Below, one piece after another: positions 4,555 to 48,055 of a DNA stretch of 64,000 bases. Within the stretch, counting starts at the first letter, position 1; each line of letters starts with the position of its first letter. Both the position numbers and the translations under genes were made by a program. Below the pieces are notes generated by a model. It worked only from the letters and a program-made list of their open reading frames with translations. It made no database searches and was not told the DNA's origin. Source of the stretch: Okeania sp. SIO1I7 (GTDB lineage: Bacteria; Cyanobacteriota; Cyanobacteriia; Cyanobacteriales; Microcoleaceae). The stretch lies in contig JAAHGF010000001.1 of NCBI GenBank assembly GCA_010672585.1, positions 186,001 to 250,000 of the forward strand, written 5' to 3'.

Positions 4555-5029
<475 letters not shown>

Positions 5030-6974: not shown

Positions 6975-7658
6975 CTATTGACTTGCTAAATGCATTAAAT
7001 GTTTGAGATTAAGTAATTGAATTACTTGATATTCTGTATCTCTATTAATCCACCCCTTCGTCTGTAATTTTTCCATGATTTTGCTAGTTTCTTCGATTTT
7101 TATATCTGTGACATCAGCTAAATCTTGGTCAGGAACATTAAATATTTCACAGTTTTTTTCTGTAGTCTGACCGTAATTTTCTGCTAATTCAACTAATGTA
7201 TTAGCTAGTTTTACGGCAGGGGGTCTATGACGCAGTTGATAACGAATGTTTGTTTGCCTGAGACGCTTGACCATAAGTTGAAGCATTCGATGATGTAGCT
7301 GAGGGTCTTTGAAGAGAGTTTGAATAAATCTTTGAGCTGAAATACTAATCAAACGTACTGGTGATAAGGCAACGACATCATTTGAGCGTGGTGACTCATC
7401 TAGAATAGCCATTTCTCCAAAAAAATCTCCTCTCCCTAGAATAGCCAGTGTCACTGAGTTGTCAGAGGACAATCTGCGTCTGACTTTGACCCAACCGGAT
7501 ACCACGAAGTAAACTGCATTACCCCAAGCATCTTCCATTAAAACTACTCTATCTGAGGGATATTCGTGTTTTACTGCAACTGAGAGTAGCCATTCCAAGG
7601 TTTCTGGGTTTGCTCCCTTAAACAGAGGAAAAAGCTCACTGAAAGCTTCTGTCTGCAT
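6975..7658 (-). CDS. Crp/Fnr family transcriptional regulator
   Basis: The 227-residue protein has a cyclic-nucleotide-binding beta-roll (about 10-125, with GRGDFFGEMAILDESPRSNDVVAL covering the phosphate-binding cassette), a long dimerisation helix (about 130-160) and a winged helix-turn-helix at about 165-215 (DLADVTDIKIEETSKIMEKLQTKGWI). The PBC glutamate and arginine are present, which is compatible with cyclic nucleotide binding, but the ligand is not known. It probably controls genes elsewhere; nothing nearby shows an obvious recognition site. Confidence 0.9.
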   Translation of the reverse strand: MQTEAFSELFPLFKGANPETLEWLLSVAVKHEYPSDRVVLMEDAWGNAVYFVVSGWVKVRRRLSSDNSVTLAILGRGDFFGEMAILDESPRSNDVVALSPVRLISISAQRFIQTLFKDPQLHHRMLQLMVKRLRQTNIRYQLRHRPPAVKLANTLVELAENYGQTTEKNCEIFNVPDQDLADVTDIKIEETSKIMEKLQTKGWINRDTEYQVIQLLNLKHLMHLASQ

Positions 7659-13296: not shown

Positions 13297-14262
<966 letters not shown>

Positions 14263-36091: not shown

Positions 36092-36865
36092 ATGATTTCT
36101 GTTGAGGATAAAATAGTCTTAATTACAGGTGCTAGTAGTGGTATTGGAGAGTCTTGTGCTAATGTATTTGCTCAAGCAGGTGCAAATCTAATTTTGGCTG
36201 CTCGTCGCCAAGAAAAACTAGAAAAACTTGCTGATGAATTAACTAAAAAATTCCAGTGTAAAACTTATTTATTAAAGCTAGATGTACGCGATCGCCTAGC
36301 AGTAGAATCAGCAATAAATTCTTTGCCTGACCCTTGGAAAAATATTGATATTTTAATTAATAATGCTGGTTTAAGTCGTGGTTTAGATAAACTCCATGTT
36401 GGGGACTTCAACGATTGGGAAGAAATGATTGATACTAATGTTAAAGGATTACTATACATGACTCGCTATGTAGTGCCAGGAATGGTTAATCGTAGTCAAG
36501 GCCATATAGTTAATATTGGTTCTATTGCTGGTCGTGGTGCTTATCCCGGAGGTAATGTGTATTGTGCATCTAAAGCTGCTGTTAGAGCAATTTCTGAGGG
36601 GTTAAAACAGGATTTATTAGGAACTCCCGTGCGAGTAACCGAAATTCAACCAGGTTTAGTAGAGACAGAATTTAGTAATGTCCGATTCCATGGGGACACA
36701 GAAAAAGCTAAAAATGTTTACAAAGACTTGACACCATTAACCGGAGATGATATAGCAGATTTAGTATTTTTCTGCGTTACGCGATCGCCCCATGTTAATA
36801 TTAGCGAACTATTGGTAGTACCCACGGACCAGGCCAATGCAACAATGGTTCATCGACATCAATAG
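36092..36865 (+). CDS. SDR family oxidoreductase (YdfG-like)
   Basis: The 257-residue short-chain dehydrogenase has the dinucleotide-binding TGASSGIGES at about 11-20, the NNAG motif (LINNAGLSRG near 90), the catalytic Ser (NIGSIAGRGAYPGG) and YxxxK (YCASKAA near 156-160). NADP preference is suggested by the AARRQEK segment after beta-2. The best family match by pattern is the YdfG-type 3-hydroxy acid dehydrogenase group; the true substrate is unknown. Length is normal. Confidence 0.88.
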   Translation: MISVEDKIVLITGASSGIGESCANVFAQAGANLILAARRQEKLEKLADELTKKFQCKTYLLKLDVRDRLAVESAINSLPDPWKNIDILINNAGLSRGLDKLHVGDFNDWEEMIDTNVKGLLYMTRYVVPGMVNRSQGHIVNIGSIAGRGAYPGGNVYCASKAAVRAISEGLKQDLLGTPVRVTEIQPGLVETEFSNVRFHGDTEKAKNVYKDLTPLTGDDIADLVFFCVTRSPHVNISELLVVPTDQANATMVHRHQ

Positions 36866-36878
36866 AACTATCGAGAAA

Positions 36879-36984
36879 TATAGCGCTACGCGCAAGTCAA
36901 AAGTCATAAGCCAGAAGTCAGAAGTAATTCCTAACTAACTTTGAGCATTTATAAATGTCCGCGCACTATTTGCGTAGTGCTATA
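36879..36984. repeat. Miniature element, family TATAGCGCTACGC, copy 2
   Basis: The ends are TATAGCGCTACGCGCAAG and TTTGCGTAGTGCTATA, with an internal AGAAGTCA tandem and the shared core TTTGAGCATTTATAAATGTC. It lies between the SDR gene and the tandem array. Confidence 0.78.
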
Positions 36985-37029
36985 TAAAAAATTTTTCAGA
37001 ATTTTCCAGAATGCTTCAATGACCTTGAG

Positions 37030-38316
37030 AAAGAAATGGTAGATGCACCCTGATGGATAGCCTCCGCCTTAATTGGTGGAGGTTTTTTTTTGACAGTAAA
37101 ACCACAGAAAATCAAATTTATAATTCCCGGATTAAGTATCGGAAGATGGGAAAAAGAAATGGTAGATGCACCCTGATGGATAGCCTCCGCCTTAATTGGT
37201 GGAGGTTTTTTTTTGGCACTAAAACACTCTCAAATTAAATTTATAATTCCCGGATTAAGTATCGGAAGATGGGAAAAAGAAATGGTAGATGCACCCTGAT
37301 GGATAGCCTCCGCCTTAATTGGTGGAGGTTTTTTTTTGGCACTAAAACACTCTCAAATTAAATTTATAATTCCCGGATTAAGTATCGGAAGATGGGAAAA
37401 AGAAATGGTAGATGCACCCTGATAGATAACCTCCGCCATAATTGGTGGAGGTTTTTTTTGCACAAAAACAGTAGAAAATCAAATTAATAATTCCCGGATT
37501 AAGTATAGGAATATGGGAAAAAGAAATGGTAGATGCACCCTGATAGATAACCTCCGCCATAATTGGTGGAGGTTTTTTTTGCACAAAAACAGTAGAAAAT
37601 CAAATTAATAATTCCCGGATTAAGTATAGGAAGATGGGAAAAAGAAATGGTAGATGCACCCTGATAAGATAACCTCCGCTGTAATTGGTGGAGGTTTTTT
37701 TTTGGAACAAAAACAACAGAAAATTAAATTTATAATTCCCGGATTAAGGATAAGAATATGGGAAAAAGAAATGGTAGATGCACCCTGATAGATAACCTCC
37801 GCTGTAATTGGTGGAGGTTTTTTTTGCACAAAAACAGTAGAAAATTAAATTTATAATTCCCGGATTAAGTATGAGGAATATGGAAAAAGAAATGGTAGAT
37901 GCACCCTGATAGACAACCTCCGCCATAATTGGTGGAGGTTTTTTTTTGACAGTAAAACACTCTCAAATTAAATTTATAATTCCCGGATTAAGTATGAGGA
38001 ATATGGAAAAAGAAATGGTAGATGCACCCTGATAGACAACCTCCGCCATAATTGGTGGAGGTTTTTTTTGCACAAAAACAACAGAAAATCAAATTTATAA
38101 TTCCCGGATTAAGGATAAGAATATGGGAAAAAGAAATGGTAGATGCACCCTGATAAGATAACCTCCGCTGTAATTGGTGGAGGTTTTTTTTTGGAACAAA
38201 AACAACAGAAAATCAAATTGATAATTCCCGGATTAAGGATAAGAATATGGGAAAAAGAAATGGTAGATGCACCCTGATAGATAGCCTCCGCCGTAATTGG
38301 TGGAGGTTTTTTTATT
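37030..38316 (+). repeat. Tandem array of eleven 121-124 bp units, each with an intrinsic terminator
   Basis: The motif GATGCACCCTGAT starts at 37042, 37165, 37288, 37411, 37532, 37653, 37777, 37898, 38021, 38142 and 38266. In each unit it is followed by CCTCCGC(C/T)-N6-TTGGTGGAGG with seven or more T, an intrinsic terminator for plus-strand transcription. Units 2-11 carry (T/A/G)ATAAT followed by TCCCGGATTAAG about 40 bases before the motif, a plausible -10 box. Each unit could therefore make an RNA of about 83 nt. No good -35 box is seen at 17 bases. Unit 1 lacks this upstream part. The unpaired ATGGTAGATGCACCCTGA is constant, whereas the region before it and the hairpin loop vary. Confidence 0.9.
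37254..37337 (+). ncRNA. Representative unit 3 of the array: predicted small RNA
   Basis: TATAAT lies at 37242-37247, so a start near 37253 is predicted. The RNA would contain GGAAGATGGGAAAAAGAAAT, the invariant GATGCACCCTGAT at 37288, and end in the hairpin CCTCCGCC/GGTGGAGG with a run of T to about 37337. Units 2 and 4-11 have the same layout. The transcript is inferred only from signals in the sequence. Confidence 0.6.
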
Positions 38317-38344
38317 TAACAAATTTTCTTGATTTTGTCGCAAT

Positions 38345-38418
38345 GTATGTAAAAATATAATTTCATAAGATACACCCTGATTAATAATTCCTGGCCAAAA
38401 CTGGCTGGGTTTTTTTGT
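38345..38418 (+). ncRNA. Divergent twelfth unit with the same motif and a different hairpin
   Basis: TATAAT (38356-38361) is followed after 7 bases by GATACACCCTGAT (one change from the array motif) and then CCTGGCCA-AAAC-TGGCTGGG with seven T. The hairpin sequence differs completely from the array, but the fold and the motif are kept. It lies about 30 bases after unit 11 and about 200 bases before the methyltransferase gene. Confidence 0.6.
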
Positions 38419-38615
38419 ATGGAATTAGGACAACTAAGACAACAAAGTTTTTATCATTGTTAATATTTGACTAAAGGGATTTGGGGTGTAGATAAAGTTT
38501 TTATAAAGCAAGATGTTTCACTAATATATATTAGCCAAACTTTTACACAATCTTGACATTTTACCGATTATTATAAGGCTAATCTAAAATACAAATATTA
38601 ATATTTCAAACAATT

Positions 38616-39443
38616 ATGTCTGATTCCTCACCAAAAAATAACTGGTATCAAGACTTTAACCTGGAACAGAAATCCAATTGGTATGGCCAAATAGCAGATG
38701 CTTACGATAGAACTAGACCTCGTTATCCCCAACCATTAGTTAACCGTGTCGTAGAAATAACTCAACTTTCTTCTAATGCCAAGATTTTAGAAATAGGTTG
38801 TGCTACAGGAACAGCAACAACTAGCTTTGCCGATCTTGGTTTTTCTATGGTGTGTGTAGAACCAAATTCAGAATCTTATAAAATAGCTGTGAAAAATTGT
38901 GCTCACTATGAAAGAGTGAAAATCATCAATACTACTTTTGAAGAGTGGGAATTAGAAAAGAATCAGTTTGATGTAGTGCTTGCTGCTACTTCTTTTCACT
39001 GGGTATCCTCTGAATTTCGTTATGCTAAAACTGCTGAAGCTCTGAAAAACAATGGCTTTTTAGTTTTACTTTGGAATACTCCACCCCAACCAAGTCAAGA
39101 TATTTATCAGGAATTATTAGATTCAGTTTATCAGAGCTGTACATCTGATTTAAAAGGGTATGAAGCGATCGCAACTCATCGAAAAAATATTAGTAGTATA
39201 GGAAATGCAGTTATTGACTCTGGTAAGTTTCAAAACTTAGTTTCCGAAGAATTAATATGTGAAGTAACTTATGATATTGATGATTATCTAGCACTTTTAA
39301 GCACCTTATCACCTTATATAGCAATGGATGCAAAGAAACGTCACACTTTATTTGAAAATTTAAGTACAATTTTAAAAAATTATCATGGCAATATTATAAA
39401 CCTTTCTTACTTATCTGCACTTCAGATTGCTCAGAAAGTCTAA
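38616..39443 (+). CDS. Class I SAM-dependent methyltransferase
   Basis: The 275-residue protein has motif I VLEIGCATGTATTSFAD-like (ILEIGCATGTAT at about 59-70), an acidic residue at the end of beta-2 (CVEPNSE), and motif IV FDVVLAATSFHWV at about 120. The pattern is that of the UbiE/Methyltransf_11 group acting on small molecules. The N-terminal WYGQIADAYDRTRPRYP is typical of this subgroup. The substrate is unknown. It lies directly after the tandem array, so its transcription may be affected by the chain of terminators. Confidence 0.85.
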   Translation: MSDSSPKNNWYQDFNLEQKSNWYGQIADAYDRTRPRYPQPLVNRVVEITQLSSNAKILEIGCATGTATTSFADLGFSMVCVEPNSESYKIAVKNCAHYERVKIINTTFEEWELEKNQFDVVLAATSFHWVSSEFRYAKTAEALKNNGFLVLLWNTPPQPSQDIYQELLDSVYQSCTSDLKGYEAIATHRKNISSIGNAVIDSGKFQNLVSEELICEVTYDIDDYLALLSTLSPYIAMDAKKRHTLFENLSTILKNYHGNIINLSYLSALQIAQKV

Positions 39444-47700: not shown

Positions 47701-47953
47701 TATGCCTTTAACTACAGCATATTTAGATGAGGCACGAACTACCTATGAACAAAAATTTCAAGAATATATGCAGCAGTTACCTCTAGAATATTCAAACTTT
47801 TTATACCGAGATTTAGGTACTGCATGGCCAGATGCTTATGATAAATTTTCTGACCCTAGTCATTTGAATCTTTATGGAGCGATCGCTGTTTCTCAAAAGT
47901 TATCTGAGGATAATGTTATTCCTTGGGTCGGGAGTGGGGGAGTAGGGGAGTAG
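44708..47953 (+). CDS. DUF1574 protein with SGNH-hydrolase-like C-terminal domain
   Basis: The 1081-residue protein has three to four repeats of an about 95-residue module in the first 600 residues (VQVQVRLRGNHLHILCEAE, LGVSVNVSIRERQLKE, LGIKIRATLKESTLHLFC, GGIRVLILPKQELLHVMSEA). A single transmembrane segment lies at about 668-687. The C-terminal DUF1574 domain has block I VGSSRALRG (Ser763/764), GINGATAQ, and DPSHLNLYGA near the end, the Ser/Asp/His pattern of SGNH esterases. Topology suggests a cytoplasmic module region and an exported hydrolase-like domain, perhaps acting on cell-surface polysaccharide (inference). The last residues run into GGGGAGTA repeats. Confidence 0.85.
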   Translation: MKGNKTILTENRSPLGDWAQEALGLPEVQVQVRLRGNHLHILCEAEKCPEMNFALAQFSQALGQVDLESLLPPNQPRIYQMFLCGRALGRRRPDWTVKLDGNKVVTQSQQVNTPSPSSGSEVNALLRSNDVAPAKHPQNQSDSQTLPEEHLTKVTAGQSPKLDINQNASELLSTPHKASVLTNDILDHSELVSSPKFHSENSSVTESKQPNELEAESENTTEELDRYLIDSPLTVSYQRLAKYGHPDAIASYLSEVLGELGVSVNVSIRERQLKEKLTETTPQLEDSAKSPELKTQKILWVSCEAAYSPAPSLLAEPIAQKLRDLKLKDFHEALISLLVQGETAPDWMLRVDLTPPDLMLQEWASWGDVAAIERLLQQQFATLGIKIRATLKESTLHLFCTKTNNSNQEAPEKKKTKEAIASTLSTILPRGIQAATIYGCIINEPEQKSESPVWIDWLNLPASENPEMAASAKVLASQGNYEAISFLLNKLLNPNLDQKLQTGGIRVLILPKQELLHVMSEAPTCPSQSQVGPPIAKFLRQLQVPGISGVRVYGRRAGQKLPLWRYGINFTAKSRQYSEQPPEFAASAEMDLLLGKRADSVFLKLTPQKTEKFDSKLLTPHHNYTVTTQLFTALQQLLITSRLFIPHEEYSTQMGNSLTYNTVNSGKWVTAFACAAMGILLTVQTDLKLGAVLEELPDISLSGNTCQGPNCQTPTEVNEDSVEVSEFSTYPSFNSPQLDEQLVRYQQYLQVENKLPDILIVGSSRALRGVNPTVLEESLATAGYPDLRVYNFGINGATAQVVDLIVRQVLPAEQLPPLIIFADGVRALNSGREDRTFDIIASSEGYEEVDAGTFTIETNTSETSVNFGIKKYKQIFKELQEKIEEISLTYQQRDRLKSLISSIINNPQENWNFWQQKEGENVAVEDENIDKLDQFQSNGFLPISIKFEPENYYQNYAKVSGKYDADYANFQLPGKQITALKNLLQYTQSIGINFVFVNMPLTTAYLDEARTTYEQKFQEYMQQLPLEYSNFLYRDLGTAWPDAYDKFSDPSHLNLYGAIAVSQKLSEDNVIPWVGSGGVGE

Positions 47954-48055
47954 GGGAGTAGGGGGGTGGGGGAGTAGGGGAGTAGGGGAGTAGGGGAGTA
48001 GGGGAGTAGGGGAGTAGGGGGGTAGGGGAGTAGGGGGGTGGGGGAGTAGGGGAGA
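47930..48055. repeat. GGGGAGTAG tandem repeat
   Basis: About twelve 8-9 base units of GGGGAGTAG/GGGGGGTAG begin within the last codons of the DUF1574 gene and run on for about 100 bases. On the minus strand they appear as a false open frame rich in Pro, Leu and Ser. Confidence 0.9.

Follow-up and report, generated by a model that had tools for sequence, protein, structure and literature searches.

An eleven-copy NsiR1 array lying apart from hetF in an Okeania genome

Results

Anatomy and identity of the array

The window, by which is meant the whole stretch of 64,000 nucleotides analysed, comes from Okeania sp. SIO1I7 (genome G000; 9.48 Mb, 109 contigs) and holds, between a short-chain dehydrogenase/reductase (SDR) gene and a class I methyltransferase gene, eleven direct repeats with a unit length of 121-124 bp, located between 37030 and 38316. 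Beyond the methyltransferase gene, a PEP carboxylase gene is found on the other strand. The features of the locus are the following.

36092..36865, + strand: SDR gene, upstream neighbour (PF00106, E 2.3e-54)
37005..37010, + strand: DIF1-like box of copy 1 (TCCAGA), 1 mismatch to TCCGGA, 32 bp before the constant stretch
37126..37131, + strand: DIF1-like box of copy 2 (CCCGGA), 1 mismatch to TCCGGA, 34 bp before the constant stretch
37249, 37372, 37493, 37614, 37738, 37859, 37982, 38103, 38227, + strand: CCCGGA boxes of copies 3-11, 34 bp upstream of the constant stretch
37037, 37160, 37283, 37406, 37527, 37648, 37772, 37893, 38016, 38137, 38261: starts of the constant stretch TGGTAGATGCACCCTGAT
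37037..37090, + strand: NsiR1 copy 1 (RF02399, 55.8 bits)
37160..37213, + strand: NsiR1 copy 2 (RF02399, 55.8 bits)
37283..37336, + strand: NsiR1 copy 3 (RF02399, 55.8 bits)
37406..37459, + strand: NsiR1 copy 4 (RF02399, 59.4 bits)
37527..37580, + strand: NsiR1 copy 5 (RF02399, 59.4 bits)
37648..37702, + strand: NsiR1 copy 6 (RF02399, 55.4 bits)
37772..37825, + strand: NsiR1 copy 7 (RF02399, 56.6 bits)
37893..37946, + strand: NsiR1 copy 8 (RF02399, 59.1 bits)
38016..38069, + strand: NsiR1 copy 9 (RF02399, 59.1 bits)
38137..38191, + strand: NsiR1 copy 10 (RF02399, 55.4 bits)
38261..38314, + strand: NsiR1 copy 11 (RF02399, 54.2 bits)
38366..38417, + strand: degenerate twelfth NsiR1 copy (22.3 bits, under the cut-off; decayed seed, terminator 38390-38409 kept)
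38616..39443, + strand: class I methyltransferase gene, downstream neighbour (PF13649, E 1.1e-12)

With Tandem Repeats Finder, 37030-38313 was returned as one array (period 123, 10.5 copies, 92% matches), and the constant 18-nt stretch was recovered as 11 exact copies, free of mismatches in every unit. The terminator scan of 36900-38620 gave 12 terminators on the + strand, compared with 1.6 ± 1.2 in shuffled sequences, corresponding to the eleven units and the one at 38390-38409. The eleven terminator-ending direct copies of 121-124 bp reported in a first-pass annotation of this DNA were thus borne out by repeat finding, exact-match search and terminator scan.

All eleven units matched the Rfam family RF02399 (NsiR1) at 54.2-59.4 bits with the covariance model, for which the gathering threshold is 39 bits. 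By this model, the eleven array units are NsiR1 itself. The same annotation had proposed a multicopy small-RNA locus with NsiR1 as its precedent and a covariance search against Rfam, NsiR1 included, as a check; with that search run and 11 of 11 copies above the threshold, the proposal holds in a stronger form. As is described for NsiR1, the window array is a tandem one in which each copy has its own terminator. The model spans 54-55 nt, beginning at the constant stretch, and the eleven RNAs represent six distinct 54-nt sequences. In two congeners (G003 and G004), the copy at the position of the twelfth one has a better seed and is without a DIF1 box within 1 mismatch.

Folding of four array copies gave a strong terminator hairpin and a small GGU/ACC hairpin in all of them (z -3.1 to -4.6). 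The small hairpin is missing from the decayed copy (z -1.5), from the genome's own cobM-linked copy (z -3.3) and from one chlD-linked copy (z -0.8), and the conservation of the 5' stretch therefore looks sequence-driven rather than structural. Across 20 representative NsiR1 copies the 5' seed GUAGAUGCACCCUG is invariant, which is partly built in since the representatives were picked by seed similarity. In the terminator stem of these 20 copies, both-sided changes with pairing kept were observed in 5 of the 6 predicted pairs.

Copy number differs between close relatives and the twelfth copy is decayed, as would be expected of a neutral satellite derived from one NsiR1 gene and kept by unequal exchange alone, with most copies inactive. 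Unit identity, however, is 0.904 within G000 and 0.901 within the relative G002 compared with 0.908 between the two, giving no sign of strong recent homogenisation, the constant stretch is identical in 11 of 11 units while the spacers vary, the boxes are kept in all copies, and tandem NsiR1 copies are present in several genera and families. Consequently, such a satellite is considered improbable. Concerted evolution of the array was likewise unsupported, as within-genome unit identity is not above between-genome identity; when copies of G000 and G002 are paired by their order from the 5' end, their identity is 0.91-1.00. Short tandem repeats with 7- or 8-bp units are also scattered throughout the window (e.g. 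4621-4667, 14155-14250 and 47930-48054).

Promoter boxes and transcript size

A putative DIF1 box within 1 mismatch precedes 11 of 11 window copies, with the exact TCCGGA in 0 of 11; copies 2-11 (10/10) share CCCGGA, one base off DIF1. According to the available part of PMC6133370, the DIF1 motif is TCCGGA at -35, one mismatch being tolerated when promoters were collected, and in the portion at hand of PMC9045159 the NsiR1 copies of PCC 7120 are driven by individual DIF1 promoters. Among 162 distinct NsiR1 copies, which were collected by seed similarity and are in many cases related, so that the figure describes the family and not independent cases, 138 have a DIF1 box within 1 mismatch (60 exact) and 24 have none. 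These boxes sit at -34 or -35 in 129 of the 138 copies, and a box was found in about 4% of shuffled upstream sequences.

The first-pass annotation had assigned to each unit a -10-like TATAAT and expected an RNA of about 83 nt. The element ends one base before the CCCGGA box, some 36-41 bp ahead of the constant stretch, which places it upstream of the -35-type box, and its exact spelling occurs in 7 of the 10 inter-unit spacers. Sigma-70-like promoters around the array numbered 6 compared with 8.0 ± 2.7 in shuffles, without any excess, and TATAAT was therefore dropped as a sigma-70 -10 element, such predictions being no commoner than in shuffles. A start set by TATAAT would give the 83-nt RNA; the covariance model supports about 55 nt instead, covering 54-55 nt from the constant stretch. 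Of the earlier overall interpretation, the NsiR1 array and its separate context (see below) stand, and the TATAAT promoter and the 83-nt size are unsupported.

The eleven terminators all point in the same direction and lie between two + strand genes, an arrangement which would also suit a stepwise read-through barrier, as the earlier annotation had considered, insulating the methyltransferase gene with the RNA product being irrelevant. Against this speak the promoter-type box at a fixed distance in every unit, the constant seed, whose unchanged sequence would be superfluous for a barrier, the stems varying with pairing kept, and the other NsiR1 copies in unrelated contexts, which together make a barrier very unlikely.

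Genomic setting and separation from hetF

The methyltransferase gene adjoins the array in all five genomes of the genus that were examined, and a relative of the SDR gene adjoins NsiR1 in 11 of 24 genomes of the window's family f1, some of which were covered only in part (G000, G002, G003, G004, G010, G012, G016, G017, G019, G021 and G023); in G001 the SDR gene is not beside the array within the stretch fetched. By RF02399, G000 carries 14 NsiR1 copies, namely the eleven of the array, one upstream of cobM and two near chlD, and it carries HetF, HetR and nifH over the cut-off.

A location upstream of and antisense to hetF, which is a feature of the described arrays and not of the Rfam model, is lacking in the window array. 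The hetF gene of G000 is carried by contig C28, where a search of 3.2 kb upstream of it for the NsiR1 seed (≤3 mismatches) gave no hit, and within family f1 a seed was present upstream of hetF in 0 of the 23 genomes with hetF found (24 sampled; about 3 kb each). G019 has hetF on the contig of its array, at a distance of some 11 kb. The gene context other than that of PCC 7120, which the first-pass annotation had pointed out, was thus confirmed as a position away from hetF.

In other families, eight relatives have hetF, of which G024 was excluded as its contig ends too near the gene; an antisense NsiR1 lies upstream of hetF in 5 of the 7 assessable relatives and is absent in G025 and G031. In family f18, which behaves like Nostocaceae, HetF was over the curated cut-off in 10 of 11 sampled genomes, and in 10 of 10 genomes with hetF the NsiR1 copy nearest to this gene is upstream of it and on the other strand (within 700 bp in nine, at 2.7 kb in G201). 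These figures and the shared RNA family would speak for a cis-antisense regulator of hetF, like NsiR1.1 in Nostoc PCC 7120, but the position of hetF on another contig of G000 without a nearby seed contradicts it, as do the 0 of 23 family genomes and the distance in G019, leaving such a role of the window array with a nearly negligible probability. In loci of both the hetF type (G030, G033) and the SDR type (G019, G023), NsiR1 is followed by an S8-peptidase gene, which suggests that hetF and the array were parted by a rearrangement.

Separately, ORFs resembling insertion-sequence pieces, as judged by eye, were seen upstream of the G000 hetF (L089:3290-5079), and NsiR1 copies were noted near ilvC in G007, G013 and G018 (L022, L032, L040).

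Copies linked to cobM and chlD

In G000, an antisense NsiR1 copy lies 80 bp from the start codon of cobM. The latter gene was found in 35 of 39 relatives, 29 of them with NsiR1, two of which (G016, G021) were too close to contig ends. Of the 27 assessable relatives with NsiR1, 24 have its seed in antisense orientation in the 1200 bp upstream of cobM (20 of the 24 seeds being 77-129 bp from the start of the cobM match); it was not found in G027, G030 and G031, and was present in 0 of the 6 relatives without NsiR1. The Nostocaceae-like f18 genomes have the cobM-linked copy in 11 of 11 cases, including G169 (ten within 150 bp, G214 at 574 bp), and in one of them, G155, 12 NsiR1 copies upstream of hetF occur together with one at cobM.

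When named genomes were searched with the RNA sequence TGGTAGATGCACCCTGGT alone, at least 118 stretches were obtained, and among the 80 listed ones, which were examined, 70 are beside cobM on the opposite strand, 3 at contig edges and 7 without cobM in reach. The listed cobM loci include Nostoc, Calothrix and Fischerella as well as Microcoleus, Tychonema, Planktothrix, Oscillatoria, Laspinema, Symplocastrum, Coleofasciculus, Microseira and Trichocoleus, these latter genera not being known to form heterocysts. Most listed loci have lgt, in the same orientation, ahead of cobM; a joint transcript of the two genes would therefore extend across the NsiR1 copy. In G007 (L069) and G025 (L083), the cobM-linked NsiR1 is a tandem array of four copies.

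Near chlD, two NsiR1-like copies sharing the seed were observed on the minus strand of G000 contig C21 (L014:7143-7205 and 7317-7378), with no DIF1 box and with a TATACT element and a GGGGT-ACCCC-like inverted repeat before the seed; the chlD-linked copies are some 650 bp or more upstream of chlD. Copies of this type recur near chlD in G001, G002, G003, G010, G016 and G021, and near serS in G011, G012 and G019.

Outside the array, sequence complementary to the constant stretch with ≤1 mismatch is found in G000 only at the cobM-linked copy and at the two copies near chlD, and the cobM leader region is complementary to 17 of the 18 nt. Duplex energies with the array 5' part were -37.0 kcal/mol for the chlD upstream region, -33.6 for the cobM leader and -16.8 for the hetF leader, to be compared, across stretches of unequal length, with a best value of -22.8 and a median of -13.7 kcal/mol for 40 window ORF leaders. 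Trans-pairing with the own hetF leader was accordingly rejected, its energy being inside the background range. Beyond NsiR1 copies, two complements with ≤3 mismatches were found (C55:246980 and C88:629080, 3 mismatches each), compared with about six expected by chance under equal base frequencies and none in a reversed-pattern control. Complementarity to cobM and chlD is the necessary result of an opposite-strand copy and is therefore no proof of regulation; cobM may be named as the first candidate target of the array RNA, with about an even chance of being one.

Distribution and host family

Previous descriptions present NsiR1 as an early marker of heterocysts which regulates hetF and represses a hetP-like gene (alr3234) through pairing over the start codon, its expression being HetR-dependent, induced by nitrogen stress and specific to heterocysts. 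The search for NsiR1, HetF and HetR covered the same 214 genomes of the window's class, each with a completeness of 90% or more, and the results were cross-tabulated. NsiR1 was over the cut-off in 111, HetF (E ≤ 1e-60) in 110 and HetR_C in 109; three of the 114 genomes with an NsiR1 match at E ≤ 0.001 were under the cut-off (by E-values taken as G165, G172 and G188) and counted as absent. NsiR1 and HetF were both present in 109 genomes and both absent in 102, with 3 discordant (NsiR1 only in G169 and G236; HetF only, as a 525-aa frame, in G073). For NsiR1 and HetR, the corresponding figures were 108 and 102, with 4 discordant (NsiR1 only in G044, G058 and G205; HetR only in G188). Fisher p-values for this co-occurrence ignore shared ancestry and are not to be taken at face value. 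Among the control genomes, E. coli alone gave an NsiR1 match, below the cut-off. Most of the NsiR1 genomes (100 of 111) are outside f18, and the co-occurrence with HetF and HetR across the 214 genomes suggests that NsiR1 is not dependent on heterocysts. The Nostocaceae-like G169 (3.8 Mb) has kept HetR and the cobM-linked NsiR1, with no HetF over the threshold and no NsiR1 array found.

Nitrogen fixation was rejected as an explanation of this distribution, as nifH, counted over the cut-off, does not track NsiR1 in the 39 relatives: 19 have both, 13 NsiR1 only (two of these being less than 90% complete), 2 nifH only and 5 neither.

The window's family is taken here as non-heterocystous and includes relatives of Planktothrix and Microcoleus. 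Over 1.1 kb of the cobM region, its member G015 shares 91% identity with Planktothrix PCC 11201, and another member, G019, shares 94% with a Microcoleus MAG over 2.8 kb. In a CobM tree of 91 rows, the window's genus groups with a Planktothrix-containing set (96/86) and falls outside a clade of 47 rows (100/96) in which the named members belong to heterocystous genera, the state of the genera, heterocystous or not, being general background; in this single-gene tree f1 is not one clade, the Microcoleus rows standing apart. If the host forms no heterocysts, heterocyst-specific NsiR1 expression cannot apply.

Discussion

Taken together, the window holds eleven NsiR1 genes and one decayed copy, their family membership, anatomy, location and conservation being directly observed, and these genes very probably act as independent units dosing one trans-acting RNA under HetR-linked control. 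As regards expression, HetR control, transcript ends, targets and the presumed non-heterocystous state, the following is proposed. Each copy would be its own transcription unit, with the DIF1-like box at -35 and a start at or just before UGGUAG, and the succession of conserved 5' seed and terminator hairpin would yield an RNA of about 55 nt. The repeats would raise the dose of a single base-pairing RNA acting in trans, which, by analogy with Nostoc, may be switched on through HetR under nitrogen limitation. Being apart from hetF, the array cannot exert a cis-antisense action on it, unlike in Nostoc, and cobM would be the strongest remaining candidate target, its own upstream region bearing an antisense NsiR1 copy.

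The hetF-detached array and the presence of NsiR1 in nearly all HetR/HetF genomes suggest that this RNA is heterocyst-independent and may predate heterocysts. In a wider proposition, for and against which we see equal chances, NsiR1 would not have originated as a heterocyst RNA but would be an ancient partner of HetR and HetF in filamentous cyanobacteria with or without heterocysts or nitrogen fixation, its second home antisense to the cobM leader would couple this module to vitamin B12 synthesis, and arrays would be movable dose amplifiers acting in trans, for which loss of the position at hetF changes the target set. The role of HetR, HetF and NsiR1 in simple filaments thus becomes a testable question, and the cobM-linked copy gives a concrete candidate target, which could be checked in PCC 7120 if carried there as in the 11 Nostocaceae-like genomes. 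In the literature, no paper was found treating hetF, hetR, non-heterocystous and small RNA together, nor one joining NsiR1 with cobM or cobalamin, the earliest NsiR1 papers being outside the reach of the search.

In PCC 7120, 12 tandem NsiR1 copies lie upstream of hetF (PMC9045159 and PMC8406250, available parts). The accessible text of PMC9045159 has the array-type NsiR1.4 of this strain partly regulating hetF and binding the alr3234 leader, and that of PMC8406250 reports that removal of array copies changed hetF::gfp expression little, which argues against a strong hetF role. The window array resembles NsiR1 of PCC 7120 (RF02399) in its covariance family, constant 5' stretch and terminator hairpin, and in being a tandem array with a DIF1-type box per copy and a similar copy number. 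It differs from it in its position between SDR and methyltransferase genes instead of at hetF, in its boxes being one base off DIF1 and in a host family taken as non-heterocystous.

A tandem array of 12 repeats is likewise found in Nodularia spumigena CCY9414, where, in contrast to the window, it lies upstream of hetF in a heterocystous strain (PMC3610870, in the portion available). RNA162 of Limnospira indica PCC 8005 is an NsiR1-like RNA of 57 nt from a filamentous cyanobacterium without heterocysts (PMC8400943); it is one small RNA in a radiation transcriptome, and the available part of that paper mentions neither an array nor a cobM link and offers no survey. In what is accessible of PMC4734099, homologs of small RNAs predicted for PCC 7120 were mapped across 89 genomes, among them non-heterocystous ones, and the figure and tables of that paper may already show NsiR1 outside heterocystous strains. 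Set beside these systems, the window array adds a new case to a known RNA family, and its setting is unusual.
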